NCBI GenBank assembly: GCA_015062825.1
Contig: SUTR01000021.1
Span: 1-39,272 of the forward strand
Length of the DNA stretch: 39,272 bases
Source: Methanosphaera stadtmanae
GTDB lineage: Archaea > Methanobacteriota > Methanobacteria > Methanobacteriales > Methanobacteriaceae
Reading direction: 5' to 3'
Under the pieces are notes generated by a model. It was not told where the DNA came from and made no database searches. It was given only the letters and a program-made list of their open reading frames with translations. This document shows, one piece after another, positions 3,883-32,920 of this stretch (the stretch's first letter is position 1; each line of letters begins with the position of its first letter). The position numbers and the translations under genes are program-made.

Positions 3883-6375
3883 TTATTTTGCTTTTATTTG
3901 TTCTATGTTCATAGTTATTGTTTCCTGTTCTGGAAGTTCTATACTCAATGCTTCTTTCAGTACTTCTTCTATTCTTGTCACTGCCTTGAATTCTACTTTT
4001 TCCTTTACCTCATCTGGTACTTCATCCAGGTCTTTAATATTTTTCTCAGGTATTATTATCTTGGTTATTCCTGATCTGTATGCAGCGATGGATTTTTCTT
4101 TAAGTCCTCCTATTGGAAGTACTTCTCCTCGCAGTGATATTTCACCAGTCATTGCCAGTCTGGAATCGACTGGAATTCCTGTTATGAGTGATGCAAGTGT
4201 TGTAAGTAATGTCACTCCTGCTGATGGTCCGTCCTTTGGTATTGCACCTGCCGGTACGTGGATATGTATGTCATACTTGTTTAGGTCCTCATTAACAAGT
4301 GGACTGAAATGTGACTTTATTAGGCTTTGTGCAATCTGGGCTGATTCCTTCATAACATCTCCAAGTTGACCGGTTATTTTCAGTTTACCCTCACCAGGCA
4401 TCATAATTGCTTCGACAAATAATATGTCTCCTCCAACAGCAGTCCATGCAAGACCTGTTACTACACCTGCAGGGTTTTTATCAGCTACCATGTCATAATG
4501 GGCTTTTTCTGCTCCAAGTATATCATATACCATATCATCTTTAACAATAAATGGTCGTGGAATATCATCCACCACAATTTTCTCAGTTGTCTTACGTGCT
4601 ATAGCAGCCAGTTGACGTTTAAGTTCACGTACACCAGCTTCTCGGGTATATTTTTCAATAATTGTCTTAATGACTTCATCCTCTATTATCAAGTCATCAC
4701 TTGTAAGGCCGTGATCTTCCAGTACATCTGGTATCAGATGTTCTTTTGCAATATGCATCTTTTCATTATTGGTATATGTTTTAAGTTCTATTATTTCAAG
4801 ACGGTCTCTAAGAGGTCCTGGGATATCTTCAAGACTGTTTGCCGTTGCTATGAAAAATACATCCGACAAGTCATATGCTACTTCCAGGTAATGGTCGGAG
4901 AATGTATCATTCTGTTCCGGATCAAGTACTTCTAGAAGTGCACTGGTAGGGTTACCATTAATTGAAGCAGTTAACTTGTCTATTTCATCAAGTACAAATA
5001 CTGGATTGCTTTGTCCTGCCTTTTTTATACCACTTATGATACGGCCGGGAAGGGCTCCAAGATATGTTCTTCTGTGTCCTCTTATTTCAGATTCATCCTT
5101 AACTCCTCCCAGACTTGCCCTGATGTAAGGTCGCTCTAGTGCTGTCGCGATACTTCTTCCAAGACTTGTCTTACCAGTACCTGGAGGTCCTACAAACAAG
5201 AGTATTGAGCCTTGTTTTTCATCCTTCATCTTAAGAACAGTTAAGTGTTGGATTATTCTTTCCTTTACCTTTTCAAGTCCATAATGATCCTTGTCCAATT
5301 GTTCTTTTGCACGCATAATGTCAATTTCTACTTTTTCTTGTTTATGCCATGGAAGATCAAGTATCAAATCAAGATAGTTTCTTATAATGTTTTCTTCGGA
5401 ATTGTTTTGTCCTTGTCTTTCAAGCTTTTTCAACTCTTCATATGCTACTTTCTCAACTTCCTCGGGAAGTTTGGCTTCTTCTATTCTTTCACGATATGAT
5501 TTACTTGAAGGACCATCATCTGTCATGTTCAGTTCTTCTTGTATCATCTTCATCTGTTCACGTAGAAGATTTTCCTTATGTATTTGGCTCATATTTTCAT
5601 TGATTCTGCTTGCAATATCCATCTGCAGCATCATAGCTTCTTTCTGTTCCAGGAGTAATTGTGTAACACGTAATGCTCGAATCTTCATTGATTCTAATTC
5701 CAGCAATTCCTGTTTTCTTTCATGTGTTACCCGTAGATATGGGAATATTTCTGCTACTTTTTCACGTACATCTACTTTACTTACTATCTGCTGAGCATAT
5801 ACTTCAGAGTTTGGTATTATATTGGATATTGCGATTACAGAATTATTTATTTCCTTATTTATTTCTCTTGCTTCATCAGGTGTAATGTTATCTTCTTCTT
5901 CTATAATCTCAAATTTTCCATAGTAATATTCGCCGGATTCTCTGATTTCTAATACATTTACCTTTTCATTTACACGTAGGTCTAATACATAGTCATCTTC
6001 CTCTTCGCGTAGGTTTAGTATTTGTAGTATTGTTCCTATATTGTGGAATTCAATATTGGATTGGTCTTTTGGTATATGTTTGGGTGTTAGTATGATTCCC
6101 TGTTGTTGGTTATTTATTGACTTTAACAGTTTTTCAGTATGTGGCTTATCCAGATGTATATTCATATTGGTATATGGGAGTAGTACTGTATTTGGTATTA
6201 TTAATATTGGAAGTTCATCATCATATGAATGTTTTTCATCAAGTATGAATTCTTCTTGTGTATTTTCTTCTTTTATCTCTTTTTCTTCATACTCTTGGTT
6301 GGAGGTTATTATCTTATTTTCTTTTCTTAATTTTTGTGTAAAGGATAGATTATCATTGTTATCCTGTTGTGTCAT
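3883..6375 (-). CDS. lon: ATP-dependent protease La, bacterial LonA type
   Basis: This 830-residue soluble Lon protease degrades damaged and regulatory proteins in the cytoplasm. It has an N-terminal substrate-recognition (LAN) domain from about residue 50 to 260, a long helical linker, an AAA+ module with Walker A GPPGTGKT and Walker B VFVLDEID, and a C-terminal Ser-Lys peptidase. The catalytic Ser is about 718 in PKDGPSAG and the Lys about 761 in GLKEK. There are no membrane segments in the AAA domain, so it is the bacterial LonA form and not the membrane LonB usual in archaea. The ATG at 6375 is preferred over the in-frame GTG at 6387, because the GTG lies inside the Shine-Dalgarno GGAGTGA. 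It follows an ArsR-type regulator within about 26 nt and is probably controlled by it. Acquisition from bacteria is likely. Confidence 0.95.
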   Translation of the reverse strand: MTQQDNNDNLSFTQKLRKENKIITSNQEYEEKEIKEENTQEEFILDEKHSYDDELPILIIPNTVLLPYTNMNIHLDKPHTEKLLKSINNQQQGIILTPKHIPKDQSNIEFHNIGTILQILNLREEEDDYVLDLRVNEKVNVLEIRESGEYYYGKFEIIEEEDNITPDEAREINKEINNSVIAISNIIPNSEVYAQQIVSKVDVREKVAEIFPYLRVTHERKQELLELESMKIRALRVTQLLLEQKEAMMLQMDIASRINENMSQIHKENLLREQMKMIQEELNMTDDGPSSKSYRERIEEAKLPEEVEKVAYEELKKLERQGQNNSEENIIRNYLDLILDLPWHKQEKVEIDIMRAKEQLDKDHYGLEKVKERIIQHLTVLKMKDEKQGSILLFVGPPGTGKTSLGRSIATALERPYIRASLGGVKDESEIRGHRRTYLGALPGRIISGIKKAGQSNPVFVLDEIDKLTASINGNPTSALLEVLDPEQNDTFSDHYLEVAYDLSDVFFIATANSLEDIPGPLRDRLEIIELKTYTNNEKMHIAKEHLIPDVLEDHGLTSDDLIIEDEVIKTIIEKYTREAGVRELKRQLAAIARKTTEKIVVDDIPRPFIVKDDMVYDILGAEKAHYDMVADKNPAGVVTGLAWTAVGGDILFVEAIMMPGEGKLKITGQLGDVMKESAQIAQSLIKSHFSPLVNEDLNKYDIHIHVPAGAIPKDGPSAGVTLLTTLASLITGIPVDSRLAMTGEISLRGEVLPIGGLKEKSIAAYRSGITKIIIPEKNIKDLDEVPDEVKEKVEFKAVTRIEEVLKEALSIELPEQETITMNIEQIKAK

Positions 6376-6401: not shown

Positions 6402-6713
6402 TTATTCATTTAGCATCATTTTAAATAAAGTATCTATGCATTTTTTATCTTGTGATATCTTATTGGTATTGATTTTATAATATATATTATTTCCTCGTTT
6501 AGTACTTTTAACAACCTTTAAGCTTTTAAGCAACTTCAAATGTTGACTTGCAGCAGGTTGGGTGATATTTATTTTTTCTGCAATATCACCTACAGTTGCC
6601 TCATTTTCTTCACATTCAGAAAGCATGCATAGTATCTTTAGACGATTAGGATTACTTAGAACCTTGAATGTTTCTTCAAGTTCCTCTTCACTTTCATGAT
6701 TTAAATTTTCCAT
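6402..6713 (-). CDS. ArsR/SmtB-family winged-helix transcriptional regulator
   Basis: This 103-residue protein is a classic ArsR-type winged helix. LSNPNRLKILCML starts the domain, and the recognition helix ITQPAASQHLKLLKSLKVV is followed by a wing KSTKRGNNIYYKI. The metal-binding ELCVCDL motif is absent: the corresponding stretch is SECEENEATVGDI with a lone Cys. Metal sensing of the usual kind is therefore unlikely, and redox, stress or ligand control is more plausible. It is the first gene of an operon with lon, and the likely target is its own promoter. The ATG at 6713 has no Shine-Dalgarno, which fits a leaderless transcript with the TATA box about 27 nt upstream. Confidence 0.88.
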   Translation of the reverse strand: MENLNHESEEELEETFKVLSNPNRLKILCMLSECEENEATVGDIAEKINITQPAASQHLKLLKSLKVVKSTKRGNNIYYKINTNKISQDKKCIDTLFKMMLNE

Positions 6714-26656: not shown

Positions 26657-28198
26657 TTAGTCATTTCTTATTACTGGTGGTCTGATGCCTAATTCTTCGC
26701 AGTATTCTATTATCTTATCATCAACTTCCTTAATTTCTTTTTCTATTTGTTCTAGTTCATTTACTAATTCATCAAGGTCTATTGGTTCTTCTTCTTCGAA
26801 TGTATCTACATATCTTGGTATGTTTAGGTTATAATCGTTTTCTATTATTTCTTCCATTGTTGCTATGTGTGAGTACTTGTCTTCTTCTATTCTTTCCTTG
26901 TATGTTGTCATGATTTTTTCAATGTCTTCTTCTCTTAGTTTGTTTTGATTTTTGACTTTTTCATAGTGTTCTGATGCATCTATAAATAGTATGTTGTCTG
27001 AATGTTTTCTTAATTTCTTAAAGACTAGTATGCATGTTGGAATGGATGTTCCATAGAATATGTTTTTTGGCAGTCCTATTACGGCATCCAGATAATTCTT
27101 TTCTTCTATGAGGTGTCTTCTTATTTTTTCTTCGGCTGCTGATCTAAAGAGAACTCCATGTGGTAGTACTACGGCCAGTGTTCCCTGCTGATTTAAGTGA
27201 TGAATCATGTGTTGTACGAATGCATAGTCTGCCTTGCTTTTTGGTGCTAGTTTTTCATATTCCTTAAATCTTTCATCATTCATGAATTTCTTGTCGCTGC
27301 TCCATTTTGCTGAGAATGGTGGATTTGCCACTACTGCATCAAATTTCATATCTGAATGCTGTGGATTTTCCAGACAGTCTCCTAGTTTTATGTCAAATTG
27401 ATTATACCTTATTCCATGTAGTATCATATTCATTCTTGCCAGGTTGTATGTGGTTTGATTTAGTTCCTGGCCATAGAAATCTTTTACTTCTGTTTCTTTG
27501 GACACTCTTAAAAGAAGTGATCCTGAACCGCAGGTAGGGTCATATACACTCTCTAGTCGGTCTTTATCTAGTGTGACTATTCTTGCAAGTATTGTTGATA
27601 CTTCCTGTGGTGTGTAGAATTCTCCTGCTTTTTTTCCTGCACTTGATGCAAATTGACTTATCAGGTATTCATATGCATCTCCCAGTATGTCATTTTCATC
27701 TTCATCTAGTTTGAAGTCTATTTCATTTAGTTTTCCTATTACCTTGGAGATTTTAACGTTCTTTTCTTCAGGTGTTCTTCCCAGTTTTGATGAATTTAGA
27801 TTCACATCTTCAAAGAGGTTACTGTAGTCCTCATGACTTTCGGCTCCCATTGATGATGTTATCTGGTCAAATGCATCCGATAAACTGTCCAATATGAATT
27901 CTTTCTCTTCTATTTTTTCTATTATGGTACTGTATAATAGTTCTGGTGTTATGAAGTATCCTAGTTTACTTAGTGCATTCTGTCGTACCTTTTCATATAA
28001 TGAACTATCCTGTTTTAGTCGTTTGAAGGTTATATTGTCCTTTTCTAGTGTCTTGTTTAGTGTTTTTTCTTGTTTTTCTGATAGGTATCTGTAAAATATA
28101 AATCCTAATATGTAATTTTTGTATTCATTTGCATCCATGTTTCCTCTTAATTGGTCTGATACAGACCATAGCTTTGTTTCTAGATTACTGTTGGACAT
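26657..28198 (-). CDS. hsdM: Type I restriction-modification DNA methyltransferase subunit HsdM
   Basis: This 513-residue N6-adenine methyltransferase has an N-terminal helical HsdM domain (about 5-150), then GEFYTPQEVS and the SAM-binding DPTCGSGSLLL at 220-230. The catalytic NPPF is at 292-295. The tail from about 480 is a coiled coil (LVNELEQIEKEIKEVDDKI). The ATG at 28198 is chosen over the in-frame GTG at 28207, since the GTG lies in the Shine-Dalgarno AGGTGA. The gene overlaps the upstream half-size specificity gene by 14 nt, so the two are translationally coupled. No hsdR follows: the next 590 nt are non-coding and then come adhesin sequences. Confidence 0.93.
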   Translation of the reverse strand: MSNSNLETKLWSVSDQLRGNMDANEYKNYILGFIFYRYLSEKQEKTLNKTLEKDNITFKRLKQDSSLYEKVRQNALSKLGYFITPELLYSTIIEKIEEKEFILDSLSDAFDQITSSMGAESHEDYSNLFEDVNLNSSKLGRTPEEKNVKISKVIGKLNEIDFKLDEDENDILGDAYEYLISQFASSAGKKAGEFYTPQEVSTILARIVTLDKDRLESVYDPTCGSGSLLLRVSKETEVKDFYGQELNQTTYNLARMNMILHGIRYNQFDIKLGDCLENPQHSDMKFDAVVANPPFSAKWSSDKKFMNDERFKEYEKLAPKSKADYAFVQHMIHHLNQQGTLAVVLPHGVLFRSAAEEKIRRHLIEEKNYLDAVIGLPKNIFYGTSIPTCILVFKKLRKHSDNILFIDASEHYEKVKNQNKLREEDIEKIMTTYKERIEEDKYSHIATMEEIIENDYNLNIPRYVDTFEEEEPIDLDELVNELEQIEKEIKEVDDKIIEYCEELGIRPPVIRND

Positions 28199-28766
28199 AT
28201 TCTTCACCTAACTGTTCTATTAATATTACATCTTGTATTTTCTTGTTTGTTTTCATCTTCTTTTCTTCTAGCTTATTTTTTTTATCTATCAATTTCATTA
28301 CTTGAACTATTTTGTCCTGTTTTTCTGGAGAAGGTATTTTTATTTTCATCTTTTTTATATCGGGTATTTTTATAAATTGTAGTTTTGTTCCTTCTATTAA
28401 TTTTCGTTCTACTTTCTTAAATTGTTTACTTGTCAGTATGTATTTTATATAATGTGGATTGTATTGTTTTTTTGTTCTGATTATCACATAGTTTGCTGGT
28501 ATTATTATGTTGTCTTCATTTATGATGTTTATTGTATTTATTTGGCTGGTATGCTGTATGATTATGTCATCTTTTTTTGAGTAAAATTTTTCATCTATTC
28601 CTTTTGATAGTGTTATTTGTTCTGTTTGTAATATGTTTTCATTGTTGTTGATTTTCTTAAGTACTTTTTGTATATGGGTGTCTTTGTTATTTTGGTGTCT
28701 TGTGATTCTTAATCCATTATATATCTGGGCTATTTCTTCTAATCTTTTATTTTCTATGATGTCCAC
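28185..28766 (-). CDS. hsdS: Half-size type I specificity subunit (single target recognition domain)
   Basis: The protein has only 193 residues, against about 400 for an ordinary HsdS. It has one target-recognition domain: RLEEIAQIYNGLRITRHQNN opens it, with IIIPANYVIIRTKKQYNPHY and FIKIPDIKKMKIKIPSPEKQ near its end. One helical spacer rich in Lys/Glu follows (about 150-180). Two copies would be needed to build a normal S-like arm pair, so a homodimer reading a palindromic split site is expected. The start is a GTG at 28766 without a good Shine-Dalgarno. The open frame begins only slightly upstream, after in-frame TAAs. It precedes hsdM, unlike the usual M-then-S order. Confidence 0.82.
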   Translation of the reverse strand: MDIIENKRLEEIAQIYNGLRITRHQNNKDTHIQKVLKKINNNENILQTEQITLSKGIDEKFYSKKDDIIIQHTSQINTINIINEDNIIIPANYVIIRTKKQYNPHYIKYILTSKQFKKVERKLIEGTKLQFIKIPDIKKMKIKIPSPEKQDKIVQVMKLIDKKNKLEEKKMKTNKKIQDVILIEQLGEEYVQQ

Positions 28767-28797: not shown

Positions 28798-29010
28798 TTA
28801 TGTATAATTTATTCGTTTTTTATGATTTAATATTATCCTGTTTTTTCCTATCACATGTCTTTTTATTATTATATTATAGATTATTGCTTCATGCATATTC
28901 ATTTTTGTCTTTGTTTTTGGCATTATCTTGTTTAGACAGCATGTTTCATATTTCTTTACACTTTCTGCTGTATATGTATTGGGATTGTATTTGTTGTCAG
29001 TCACCTCCAC
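28798..29010 (-). CDS. Small basic protein upstream of hsdS, unknown
   Basis: This 68-70-residue frame uses a GTG at 29010 or 29004, just after a TCTTAG-N5-CTAAGA palindrome. It encodes a basic, Asn/Lys-rich protein containing TAESVKKYETCCLNKIMPKT and MNMHEAIIYNIIIKRHVIGK. I do not recognise a family, and no clear helix-turn-helix is visible. The frame stays open to 29109, through the promoter. A strong GGAGGTGA at 29008-29001 has no ATG at the right distance, so the start is uncertain, and a leaderless GTG is possible. It ends 31 nt before hsdS. It may be a regulator or a third component of the methylase locus, or an artefact. Confidence 0.4.
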   Translation of the reverse strand: MEVTDNKYNPNTYTAESVKKYETCCLNKIMPKTKTKMNMHEAIIYNIIIKRHVIGKNRIILNHKKRINYT

Positions 29011-29012
29011 TA

Positions 29013-29029
29013 TCTTAGAACTGCTAAGA
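29013..29029. promoter_or_regulatory. Palindrome TCTTAG-N5-CTAAGA, copy 1
   Basis: A perfect 6-bp inverted repeat with spacer AACTG lies at the predicted transcription start of the minus-strand hsdS-hsdM unit, about 26-42 nt beyond the TATATATA at 29059-29052. The second copy at 29068-29084 has identical arms and also begins its spacer with AA, so both are likely binding sites of the same dimeric regulator. Confidence 0.55.
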
Positions 29030-29051
29030 CAAATAATAATTTGATTATGGT

Positions 29052-29059
29052 TATATATA
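29052..29059. promoter_or_regulatory. TATA box between the two palindromes
   Basis: TATATATA sits between the two TCTTAG-N5-CTAAGA sites and is itself symmetrical, so it could serve either strand. Minus-strand use would lead to the small gene and hsdS-hsdM. Confidence 0.45.
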
Positions 29060-29067
29060 AATGTATG

Positions 29068-29084
29068 TCTTAGAATACCTAAGA
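29068..29084. promoter_or_regulatory. Palindrome TCTTAG-N5-CTAAGA, copy 2
   Basis: This is the same arms as copy 1, with spacer AATAC. It lies on the other side of the TATA box, centred 55 nt from copy 1. A regulator bound at both could loop or fully cover the promoter. Confidence 0.55.
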
Positions 29085-29315
29085 TAAATATGATTCTTGA
29101 TGATAACAAATTTAGAATCTTTTCATTGCAATGATTATTGAATTTCTACGCTTTGTATTATAGTATGTTGAAGGGATTAATAATCTATTCTTCTTATATT
29201 AACCTTCATATAATTACTTCAATACACTTTATTTCTCATATGGTTAATTAATTTTATATATTTAATAATATAATTATTTTTTTATTAAAAAAATAGATTT
29301 ATTCCTTTAAAATAC

Positions 29316-29323
29316 TATAAATA
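29316..29323 (+). promoter_or_regulatory. Putative TATA box of the DUF2207 operon
   Basis: TATAAATA lies 49 nt before the ATG at 29372 and would start transcription near 29347, just before the Shine-Dalgarno AAGGAGGGG at 29351-29359. Confidence 0.45.
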
Positions 29324-29371
29324 AGACTTCACAATATATTATTTATTAATAAGGAGGGGAGTGTGTCTAGT

Positions 29372-31132
29372 ATGAAACTTAAAAAGTTTAGTATGATATT
29401 ATTGGTCATGCTGATATTTGTCTCAGCAACATTTGCTGCAGATGGAGATTACAAAATTCCAGAAGTAGTAAAGGACATAACAGTAAATGAGGACGGATCA
29501 GTACACATCACCGAAAAAATAGTATATGATATTGAAGGAAGTGTTAATGGAGTATACAGAGACATACCCTTAAGCGGCAAGCAATCGGTAAGAAACATAT
29601 CAGTTAAAACCCCCGGTTACTATAATACGCTGGAAGTGCAGAGGAGTACAAATAGTACTCTATTAAGGGTATGGTTATATGAAGATATGGCTAAAACACG
29701 TAAAACAGAAAATGCAAAGGTAGAAGTAACATATGACTACATCATAAGAAAAGGTGTGAAAGTATATAATGACATAGCAGAAATGCAGTACATGACATGG
29801 GGAGGAAAATGGGATTCAAAAGTAGAGCATATGGAATCAAATATACACATACCAGGCAATAAAAATGATATAGAATACTGGAACAATCCAGAGGACAAGG
29901 TAGTATCAAGTCAGTGGACAAGTGAGGACACATTAACAACCAAACTGGAAAATATAGATGCACACACAACATTCGAGCAAAGACTTTTAATGCCAAAAAA
30001 ATATATTAAAAACACAACATTTGCACAGGTAATACATATTGATGCAAAACAACGGATAGAAGAGGACCAGAGAAAGTACAAGGAAGAACATGACCAACAA
30101 AATAGTATAAACATTATTGCCTGGACAATACTAGGGGTACTTCTACTAATACCCTTTGGGATATACGGATTTTTTGGAAGAGAACCAAAAATAGAATACA
30201 ATGCAGAATACGAGTATGACCTGCCTACAGATGCAACACCACTACAGGTAAACTATCTAATAAATGGAAATGTGGGAGTTATAACTAATGATGCAATGTA
30301 TGCAACAATACTTGACCTGATAAACAGGAAATACTTCAAAATAGTGGCAAATGATGCAGAAAATACAATTATCAGACAAACAAATAAGGACACGGGAGAC
30401 CTGAAGGAATATGAATTATCATTAATTGATTTCTTGTCATCATTTGCACAGGATGGAGACATATCAATCGGTTATGTTGGAAAAAGATCACACCATCAAC
30501 AATTCCAGAATTTCAGCACTAAATGGTACAAACAAGCACGTGAAGAAACATCAAGCACTTGGAGAAAACAATACTTTGATGATAAAGGCTCAAACCTGTT
30601 ATTATACTGTGGAATAATGTTCTGGGTATTGTTTATTATTACGGCAATTGGAATAACCTTTAAGTTGATACCAACTTATTTGGCAATAGTAGCACTTGTT
30701 TCAATGTTTGTTTTCATGTTTGGTGCGGTATTACTGTTTGTAGTACCAAACACAGTTCCCGGAAGATGGACACCAGAAGGAAAGGAATTTCATGACAAAT
30801 GGAAAAACTTTGAAAAGTATATTAAAGATTATAGTCTGATAAACGAGAGGCCGCCATCATCTATACAGGTATGGGGAAAATACTTGATATATGCTTCGGC
30901 ACTAGGATGTGCAGATCAGGTAACAAAAAACATGAAAGAATACTTCAAATCAATAGATATTGTTGAAGATTCATTAAATGATAGTAGTGCAGTATCATTT
31001 GCATATTATAATGGATTTTCTCATGTAGAATCATCATTCAACACTATATCACAATCTGAAAGTGATTCAAGTGGATCAATAGGAAGCAGTGGTAGTGGAG
31101 GATTTGGTGGAGGAGGTGGAGGAACCTTCTAA
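29372..31132 (+). CDS. DUF2207 membrane protein with Gly-rich tail, copy 1
   Basis: This 586-residue predicted membrane protein has a signal peptide (MKLKKFSMILLVMLIFVSATFA) and an extracytoplasmic DUF2207 domain. That domain contains VNEDGSVHITEKIVYDIEG and VNGVYRDIPL, with WTSEDTLTTKL later. A transmembrane helix follows at about 250-272, then a cytoplasmic domain, then two more helices near 408-430 and 437-460, and a C-terminal tail ending SGSGGFGGGGGGTF. DUF2207 proteins are widespread in bacteria and some archaea, and their function is unknown. ATG 29372 is preferred over an in-frame GTG at 29363 that touches the Shine-Dalgarno. It is followed 33 nt later by a paralogue of nearly identical layout. 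Confidence 0.85.
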   Translation: MKLKKFSMILLVMLIFVSATFAADGDYKIPEVVKDITVNEDGSVHITEKIVYDIEGSVNGVYRDIPLSGKQSVRNISVKTPGYYNTLEVQRSTNSTLLRVWLYEDMAKTRKTENAKVEVTYDYIIRKGVKVYNDIAEMQYMTWGGKWDSKVEHMESNIHIPGNKNDIEYWNNPEDKVVSSQWTSEDTLTTKLENIDAHTTFEQRLLMPKKYIKNTTFAQVIHIDAKQRIEEDQRKYKEEHDQQNSINIIAWTILGVLLLIPFGIYGFFGREPKIEYNAEYEYDLPTDATPLQVNYLINGNVGVITNDAMYATILDLINRKYFKIVANDAENTIIRQTNKDTGDLKEYELSLIDFLSSFAQDGDISIGYVGKRSHHQQFQNFSTKWYKQAREETSSTWRKQYFDDKGSNLLLYCGIMFWVLFIITAIGITFKLIPTYLAIVALVSMFVFMFGAVLLFVVPNTVPGRWTPEGKEFHDKWKNFEKYIKDYSLINERPPSSIQVWGKYLIYASALGCADQVTKNMKEYFKSIDIVEDSLNDSSAVSFAYYNGFSHVESSFNTISQSESDSSGSIGSSGSGGFGGGGGGTF

Positions 31133-31165
31133 AAATCCTCTCATATTACAAGGATGGTGTTTGGT

Positions 31166-32920
31166 ATGAATACTACGAAAATATTAGTATTATTGATTTT
31201 ACTGTTTATGTTAATGCCAGTATCACTAGCAAATGAAGGAGATTTTACCATTCCATCAGTTATTAAGGATATTACAGTAAATGATGATGGTTCTACAGTT
31301 ATCCAGGAAGAAATAACATATGATATTGAAGGAAGTGTTAATGGAGTATACAGGGATATTCCACTTAGCCAAAATCAATCTGTAAATAATATTTCAGTAG
31401 AAACTCCAGGATATTACAATAAATTAGAGATAATTTCGAATTCCGAATTAACCAAGTTAAGAGTATGGCTTTATACTGATGAAGCTAAAACACAAAAGAC
31501 AAACAATGCCAAAGTAAAAGTAATATATCATTACACTATAATAAAGGGTTTGAAAGTTTATAATGATATTGCAGAATTGCAGTACATGACTTGGGGTGAT
31601 GAATGGAATTCAAAAGTGGAATATCTGGAATCCCACATAATAATACCCGGCAACAAGGACAATACAGAATACTGGAACAACCCTGATAATAAGGTAATTT
31701 CATGTGAATGGACAAGCAACAACATTTTAACAACAAAACTAAAAAACATAAGAGCACATGAAAGATTTGAACAAAGAATAATAATGCCTAAATCCTACAT
31801 TAAAAACACTACCTATGCTCAAATAGTAAATACAGATGCAAAAAATCTCATAGAACAAGACCAGAGAAGTTATGCAGAAGAAAAAGACAAGGATAATCTC
31901 AGATTAATATTTTTCTTCACAGCAATGGCCATATTCACAATCATCCCAGTAGGAATCTATGGATTATATGGCAGAGAACCAAAAATAGATTATAATGCAA
32001 AGTATGAGTATGATCTTCCTACAGATGAATCTCCAGTACAGGTATATGTAATTACAAGGGGGAAGCTTAAAAATATAGGTAACGATGCAATGTATGCAAC
32101 AATACTGGATTTAATAGATAGAAATTATTTTAAAATAATCTTTTATAATGATGATACAGTTATTCGATGGACAAATAAGGATACATCAGCTTTGAAGGAA
32201 TATGAAAGATTAATAATTGGATTTTTATCATCATATGCAGTAAATGGCGATATATTCCTTGGAAATATTGCCCGACAAAATCGTAAAGCATTCCAAAATT
32301 TCAGAAAATCATGGATTGAACAAGCAAAAGAGGAAATTCCTCCTTCATATATTGAAAAATATTTTGATGATAAAGGTTTGAAAATATTTCAAAGAATACG
32401 ACACCTATATATATTACTAGTCCTAGCCGTATTTATAATAATATTCTTCAGATTAATACCATCAACATTCATTCTGGAATTATTAGCTGTGTTACTGTTG
32501 ATTATCCCAGTATTCTATATAATAATGTGGATTGTTCCAAGATCTATTTCTGGAAGATGGACACCACAGGGAAAAGAGACATATCAGAAATGGAAAAACT
32601 TTGAAAGATACATAAAAGACTACAGTCTAATCAGCCAAAGACCACCAGCATCAGTACAAGTATGGGGAAGATATATGGTATATGCAATGGCACTTGGATG
32701 TGCAGATAAGGCAACAGAAAATATGAGAAAATACTTTGAAACAAATCAAATACATGATGATTCATTCAATGATATAAATGTAGTATTCTTTGCATATCAT
32801 GGAGGTATTGCTAATATGGAATCATCATTTAATACATTATCACGAACAGACTCTTCAACTTCCGGAATAGGACATGCTGGTAGTGGAGGATTTGGTGGAG
32901 GTGGTGGTGGAACATTCTAA
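31166..32920 (+). CDS. DUF2207 membrane protein with Gly-rich tail, copy 2
   Basis: This 584-residue paralogue of the preceding gene is collinear with it end to end. It has a signal peptide (MNTTKILVLLILLFMLMPVSLA), the DUF2207 domain with VYDIEG replaced by TYDIEG, YLESHIIIPGNKDNTEYW, and membrane helices in the same places. It ends AGSGGFGGGGGGTF, the same final 13 residues as copy 1. The cytoplasmic and membrane parts have diverged more. ATG 31166 follows AGGATGG at 31151-31157 with suitable spacing. An ATG at 31154 is inside this site. The tandem arrangement indicates duplication with retained function, perhaps as a heteromer. It is followed by a T9 run. Confidence 0.85.
   Translation: MNTTKILVLLILLFMLMPVSLANEGDFTIPSVIKDITVNDDGSTVIQEEITYDIEGSVNGVYRDIPLSQNQSVNNISVETPGYYNKLEIISNSELTKLRVWLYTDEAKTQKTNNAKVKVIYHYTIIKGLKVYNDIAELQYMTWGDEWNSKVEYLESHIIIPGNKDNTEYWNNPDNKVISCEWTSNNILTTKLKNIRAHERFEQRIIMPKSYIKNTTYAQIVNTDAKNLIEQDQRSYAEEKDKDNLRLIFFFTAMAIFTIIPVGIYGLYGREPKIDYNAKYEYDLPTDESPVQVYVITRGKLKNIGNDAMYATILDLIDRNYFKIIFYNDDTVIRWTNKDTSALKEYERLIIGFLSSYAVNGDIFLGNIARQNRKAFQNFRKSWIEQAKEEIPPSYIEKYFDDKGLKIFQRIRHLYILLVLAVFIIIFFRLIPSTFILELLAVLLLIIPVFYIIMWIVPRSISGRWTPQGKETYQKWKNFERYIKDYSLISQRPPASVQVWGRYMVYAMALGCADKATENMRKYFETNQIHDDSFNDINVVFFAYHGGIANMESSFNTLSRTDSSTSGIGHAGSGGFGGGGGGTF

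Follow-up and report, generated by a model that had tools for sequence, protein, structure and literature searches.

Paired palindromes recur at the promoters of half-HsdS/HsdM modules and may serve as operators of a self-repressing system

The half-S/HsdM operon and its promoter

The window, by which we mean the whole 39,272-nucleotide stretch of Methanosphaera stadtmanae DNA under analysis, carries a two-gene operon on its minus strand, in which the start of HsdM overlaps the end of a gene for a short HsdS-like protein, here called half-S. The operon and the elements preceding it are arranged as follows.

26657..28207, minus strand: HsdM, 516 aa; Pfam N6_Mtase and HsdM_N, NCBIfam hsdM equivalog
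28185..28766, minus strand: half-S, a 193-aa HsdS-like protein with one TRD and one long helix; first operon gene; Pfam Methylase_S (PF01420), PADLOC type I specificity
28798..29109, minus strand: leader ORF of 103 aa, unlikely to be a gene; no Pfam or NCBIfam match
29011..29031, minus strand: putative inner operator, 21-mer TGTCTTAGCAGTTCTAAGATA with core 29013-29029; begins 30 nt downstream of the TATA start and coincides with the predicted transcription start
29054..29061, minus strand: TATA box TTTATATA of the promoter
29066..29086, minus strand: putative outer operator, 21-mer TATCTTAGGTATTCTAAGACA with core 29068-29084; lies just upstream of TATA/BRE, its end 4 nt short of the TATA start

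Whereas HsdS holds two TRDs in one chain, half-S has only the one TRD and the one helix in its 193 residues. The AlphaFold model (pLDDT 88.4) places the TRD and a C-terminal helix of 40 residues (147-186) as in HsdS, and a Foldseek search with this model returned Esub1 and HsdS (1yf2 and others) among the best fold matches. Esub1 (PDB 8vsq and 8vsr; a co-crystal with Prx), a protein of similar length, was the best of these (E 1.3e-08, TM 0.64). Searches of half-S with Pfam, PADLOC and NCBIfam found no helix-turn-helix domain. The HsdM retains both the catalytic NPPF and the SAM motif (GSG), the combination (SAM motif plus NPP[FYW]) of a functional type I methyltransferase. Neither hsdR nor a full hsdS lies beside the two genes, which therefore do not make up a complete type I restriction-modification system, and a relative of the HsdR of genome G008 is absent from the window genome except for a 30% match at contig C42. 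On the other side of the promoter the operon is adjoined by two tandem, related genes for DUF2207-type membrane proteins (29363-32920).

The initial annotation had drawn attention to two identical TCTTAG-N5-CTAAGA palindromes with AA-initial spacers, 55 nt apart around a TATA box, and this description holds. Both matches are exact, at 29013-29029 (TCTTAGAACTGCTAAGA) and 29068-29084 (TCTTAGAATACCTAAGA); their centres fall at 29021 and 29076, and TATATATA, including the TATA box, stands between them. The repeated unit extends a little beyond this core, as the minus-strand 21-mers listed above indicate. Dinucleotide shuffling of the window, repeated 100 times, never produced the motif. A comparable pair, defined as two perfect palindromes of whatever sequence that share their 6-bp arms (at least two G/C) and spacer and lie 20-100 nt apart, appeared in 0 of 300 simulated windows, against exactly one in the real window, the TCTTAG pair itself. 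The genome-wide motif search that the annotation had called for placed the exact motif at these two sites only in the 2.61-Mb genome (control pattern, 0). With one mismatch allowed, there were seven sites as against 10 for the control pattern; this is background, and the exact TCTTAG motif thus has no wider regulon. One such one-mismatch site, at C42, was dropped because it lies inside an hsdR-like ORF. The exact motif was found in none of the 19 other genomes of the genus, and a DNA search with the intergenic region across the genus returned, besides the window itself, only short and mostly AT-rich matches.

Judging by the distance to the minus-strand TATA box at 29061-29054, transcription is predicted to begin at about 29030-29036, so that the inner palindrome would fall at the transcription start; the earlier proposal that one copy marks the point where minus-strand transcription of the methylase begins agrees with this placement. 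A nearer promoter may lie within the 244-nt leader of half-S. The operon accordingly has a repeated operator-like element at its own promoter and specific to that promoter, as in an autoregulated operon with paired operators. Since the transcript would begin with the inner palindrome, this copy might instead be thought to act at the RNA level, as a leader hairpin. The outer copy, however, is upstream of the promoter and untranscribed, folding of the leader is no better than that of shuffles (z 0.64), and a hairpin role is hardly credible. No Rfam match was found in the window.

The annotation had also offered a small upstream protein as the regulator. The 103-aa ORF has neither a family match nor a relative in the 19 other genomes of the genus and is therefore probably not a gene; half-S together with HsdM would be the likelier binder.

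Recurrence of the layout before half-S genes

Our finding is more general than the initial annotation saw, in that the paired operator recurs across the family of half-S/HsdM modules, with the layout conserved and the letters different. In the orthologous loci of genomes G008 and G018 (HsdM 84% identical, half-S 57-58%) two GTCTTTG palindromes lie 55 bp apart around a TATA box, and GTCTTTG-N7-AAGAC is found in these two genomes at these operator sites only. G010, G017 and G037 carry GTCCTA palindromes with a spacing of 56-59 bp.

The survey covered 97 half-S loci, 24 from the genus and 73 retrieved through a family search; among the 73, L175 also belongs to the genus. Each upstream region was scored for a pair of similar palindromes enclosing a TATA box, with 1,940 Markov shuffles as the null. 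A score of at least 20 was reached by 16 of the 97 loci, where 0.5 were expected, and a score of at least 26 by 10 of the 97 and by none of the 1,940 null sequences. In the 15 pair loci the first palindrome ends 2-15 nt before the TATA box; the distance from the TATA start to the second palindrome is 29-33 nt in 12 of them, where the second palindrome thus falls on the predicted transcription start, and 36, 38 and 42 nt in the other three. The scan required a TATA box, but the distance from it to the second palindrome was not preset to the observed values, and the pairs of the window operon, G008, G018:C140, G010:C6, G017 and G018:C54 had first been found without any TATA condition. This regularity bears on the idea that the palindromes are recombination sites or the remains of mobile elements. 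Integrase-like ORFs (labelled as such from reading the sequence) and inverted hsdS copies do occur in L068, L070, L071 and contig C8 of the window genome (L203). The palindromes, however, keep a fixed position relative to the TATA box, vary from locus to locus and do not bracket hsdS genes, all of which makes a recombination role very improbable.

A wider scan of 110 sequences (974 kb with both strands counted) at a threshold of 22 gave 30 rows representing 25 places, 15 of them before half-S. At L174 and L180 the pair precedes a small ORF that is followed by half-S, at L080 a second pair stands before the same half-S, and at L136, L071, L175 and L085 pairs occupy other promoters of the same loci. 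Three pairs scoring at least 22, at L164, L093 and L076, have no explanation. Shuffles of the scanned sequences under 4 kb yielded no pair at this threshold.

Some of these loci hold further sites. In L071 (G017) a second GTCCTA pair with a TATA box, at 2228-2302, follows closely on the 3' end of hsdR and matches the half-S operator of the locus; there is no ORF of at least 110 aa between 1506 and 2228. A second pair of TGTCATT type follows a degenerate HsdM at L136:2908 and at L211 (G054:C146), before small ORFs that have no Pfam match. Two successive palindrome pairs, or four sites, precede half-S in L148 (G024:C269) and L080 (G010:C159).

No pair was present at the threshold of 20 in 81 of the 97 half-S loci. 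Many of these half-S genes sit a short way behind another ORF or have other layouts, which does not account for all of them. The half-S of L131 and L134, about 70% identical to that of L127, exemplifies the position close behind another ORF: it has no pair and starts 11-12 nt after one. Two further classes keep variants of the theme. All nine aligned loci of class B have a GTAAC-containing site after the half-S TATA box and a pair around a divergent TATA box, and all six loci of class C have TTCATA/TATGAA-type palindromes, one copy being imperfect in G018:C123. In many loci (L150-L172 and others) the stretch between the upstream gene and half-S also contains a long palindrome, of the type ATTAGTTTTGGCTCACCACCAAAACTAAT, some 85-125 nt ahead of half-S. 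In L068 (about 4906-4925) and L069 (about 4640-4655), from G008 and G018, half-S apparently lacks ATG, GTG or TTG at the expected distance after GGAGG, and its reading frame starts near ATA TCA.

Loci without half-S served as controls. Scored without a TATA condition, five of six control hsdM loci with no half-S in front fell within their shuffles, and the sixth, G002:C85, lay slightly above them (22.0 against a maximum of 20.7). In twelve archaeal hsdM loci without half-S (L236-L238, L072-L076, L199-L201 and L096) no pair stood immediately ahead of hsdM; L075 and L076 contain pairs elsewhere, the former an AT-rich one within hsdS and the latter one that lies 4.9 kb ahead of hsdM. A half-S that precedes hsdM in Limosilactobacillus (L241) had no pair, its score of 17.4 comparing with shuffles of up to 25.0. 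Within the named genome collection no half-S relatives were confirmed, and an HsdM search gave 11 loci.

The suggestion that the palindromes form a duplicated operator for a dimeric regulator of the methylase gains from this recurrence before half-S/HsdM genes elsewhere, and would stand on the sequence data, whereas the bidirectional role attached to it does not. In the window the plus-strand DUF2207 gene has a TATA-like sequence of its own (about 29307-29317), and in the orthologous locus of G008 half-S and the hsdR upstream of it have the same orientation. Only in G010, G017 and G037 is the region shared with a divergently oriented hsdR.

Covariation of operator and half-S

What the pair loci have in common is the half-S gene. 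Among 16 loci, operator similarity correlated with half-S identity (Mantel 0.583, 0/5000) and continued to do so given HsdM (partial Mantel 0.469, 0/5000), as against 0.126 (1219/5000) for HsdM given half-S. The set included L174 and L180 from the wider scan and left out G018a, a near-duplicate of G008a, as well as G000:C86, L157, G013:C9 and L158, whose pairs are weak or AT-rich. In a set of 12 loci without the L194/L174 group the two proteins are not separable (half-S 0.437, 21/5000; HsdM 0.401, 256/5000), so that the distinction rests largely on that group. This group contains a natural swap. The half-S proteins of L194 and L174 are 61% identical and their GTTCCTA operators alike, while their M proteins share only 29% identity; conversely, the M of L194 shares 66-75% identity with those of the window operon, L128 and L129, whose operators differ. 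In L194, half-S is directly followed by hsdR and has no adjacent M. Because the loci are few and related, we take the covariation as a strong hint, though not proof, that the operator sequence follows half-S and not HsdM.

Several genomes carry more than one half-S module, each with an operator of its own: the window genome at C121, C31 and C86, and G018 and G010 with three each. Different operators for different modules of one genome make a single outside regulator unlikely. This weighs against the reading in which the palindromes are bound by a conventional helix-turn-helix repressor whose gene lies elsewhere, half-S/HsdM being regulated cargo only. TGT...ACA ends are common in the operators of ordinary helix-turn-helix regulators, and palindromes of about 20 bp with such ends are typical of dimers of these proteins. 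Small controllers of type I operons are, moreover, known in RptR (PMC12255303) and HsdC (PMC5282649). The scanned ORFs of the window do include one helix-turn-helix protein, of the ArsR family (6402-6713), 22 kb away. Against such a repressor, none of those among the 24 window ORFs scanned with Pfam that adjoin the module encodes a helix-turn-helix protein. On the same side stand the tracking of half-S rather than M by operators that differ within a genome, the presence of half-S throughout the pair loci, with L194 having no adjacent M, and the restriction of the exact motif to this promoter. We consider a repressor from elsewhere unlikely.

A switch by promoter methylation, with the palindromes as methylation targets of half-S/HsdM and not as binding sites, seems more doubtful still. 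Half-S homodimers can create symmetric bipartite methylation sites (PMC6158711; EcoR124INT, PMC3320862), the NPPF of the window HsdM is intact, and there are adenines in both arms. Methylation would, however, be expected to have many sites, and the full motif occurs here only (a shorter core would be commoner). Moreover, the partner M lacks the catalytic motif in most related loci. NPP[FYW] is missing in 78 of the 97, including the pair loci L133, L148, G018:C54 and G010:C159; 15 loci, including that of the window, retain it, in three no partner was found, and one was not covered. Degenerate partners nevertheless still match N6_Mtase (8 of 8 tested), and a model of a class B partner (pLDDT 82) has HsdM crystal structures as its best structural matches. 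The loss of NPP[FYW] in so many partners suggests that the function retained in most related modules is DNA binding and not methylation.

A model of self-repression and its parallels

Taken together, these observations point to a half-S/HsdM complex that occupies both palindromes and thereby represses the promoter of its own operon, a reading to which we assign a probability of about 0.65; repression of the module by itself is the most likely effect. Two copies of half-S, with one TRD each, would pair into a symmetric specificity unit, and this dimer with two HsdM subunits would grip one palindrome of 20-21 bp. One complex would sit just upstream of TATA/BRE and a second, 55 bp away, on the transcription start, so that TBP/TFB and RNA polymerase would be shut out and the operon would repress itself once free half-S/HsdM accumulated. 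We infer the identity of half-S as the binder, the participation of HsdM and repression as the effect from sequence comparison, while the pair, its rarity, its placement, its recurrence before half-S genes and its covariation with half-S rather than HsdM are direct observations. The intact HsdM of the window may also methylate the operators, as a second layer of the mechanism.

Classical S and M subunits bind DNA only together, neither doing so alone (PMC3874165). Half-S without M should therefore not suffice, and a dead M may be kept to complete the DNA clamp. TRDs of type I enzymes read sequences 5-9 bp apart (PMC12707154), and cores such as GTCTT-N9-AAGAC are compatible with this spacing. 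A point against the model is the length of the palindromes: with the conserved outer TGT...ACA they span 20-21 bp and so exceed classical type I sites.

The arrangement has known parallels. As with the C proteins of type II systems and the HsdC of Mollicutes type I systems, a small DNA-binding protein would be encoded first in the operon, with a repeated operator over its own promoter. C proteins, however, are helix-turn-helix proteins (PMC12707154), whereas the first gene here is half an HsdS and the operators vary from locus to locus. RptR of type I defence islands is likewise encoded by the first ORF and represses its operon through repeated palindromic operators, as proposed here; it differs in being a small alpha-helical homodimer that is bacterial, recognises a 6-bp TAGCTA and is described as unrelated to HsdS (PMC12255303). 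RptR and HsdC show that small dedicated proteins can control the transcription of type I operons, but both are unrelated to HsdS. Half-HsdS methyltransferases, such as the engineered EcoR124INT and the half HsdS of PMC6158711, share with half-S one TRD and one helix, dimerisation and a symmetric bipartite site, and PMC6158711 likens half-HsdS dimers to transcription-factor homodimers. They have been studied as methyltransferases or restriction enzymes, whereas here the sites are confined to the module's own promoter and M is usually catalytically degenerate. No paper in the mostly non-subscription literature covered presents half-S or pseudo-HsdM as regulators in its title or the start of its abstract, which is weak evidence of absence.

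It is possible, on evenly balanced grounds, that in archaea type I methyltransferases have given rise to a family of transcription regulators made up of half-HsdS and HsdM (mostly a dead pseudo-HsdM). Its members would be dimerised, methylase-clamped repressors with easily reprogrammed operator specificity, present as several orthogonal copies per genome and sometimes heading full R-M-S operons. The transcriptional control of type I restriction systems is poorly known. If the reading is right, the recognition subunit of a restriction enzyme doubles as a repressor, a job not known for such proteins. Operators would then reveal TRD specificities straight from sequence, without methylome data, and many methanogen pseudo-HsdM genes, still called methyltransferases by family models, would gain a function.

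Two full-length hsdS genes in inverted orientation, accompanied by an integrase-like ORF but by no neighbouring hsdM, are also present in the window genome, at L203 (G000:C8); these hsdS genes might use the HsdM of the window.
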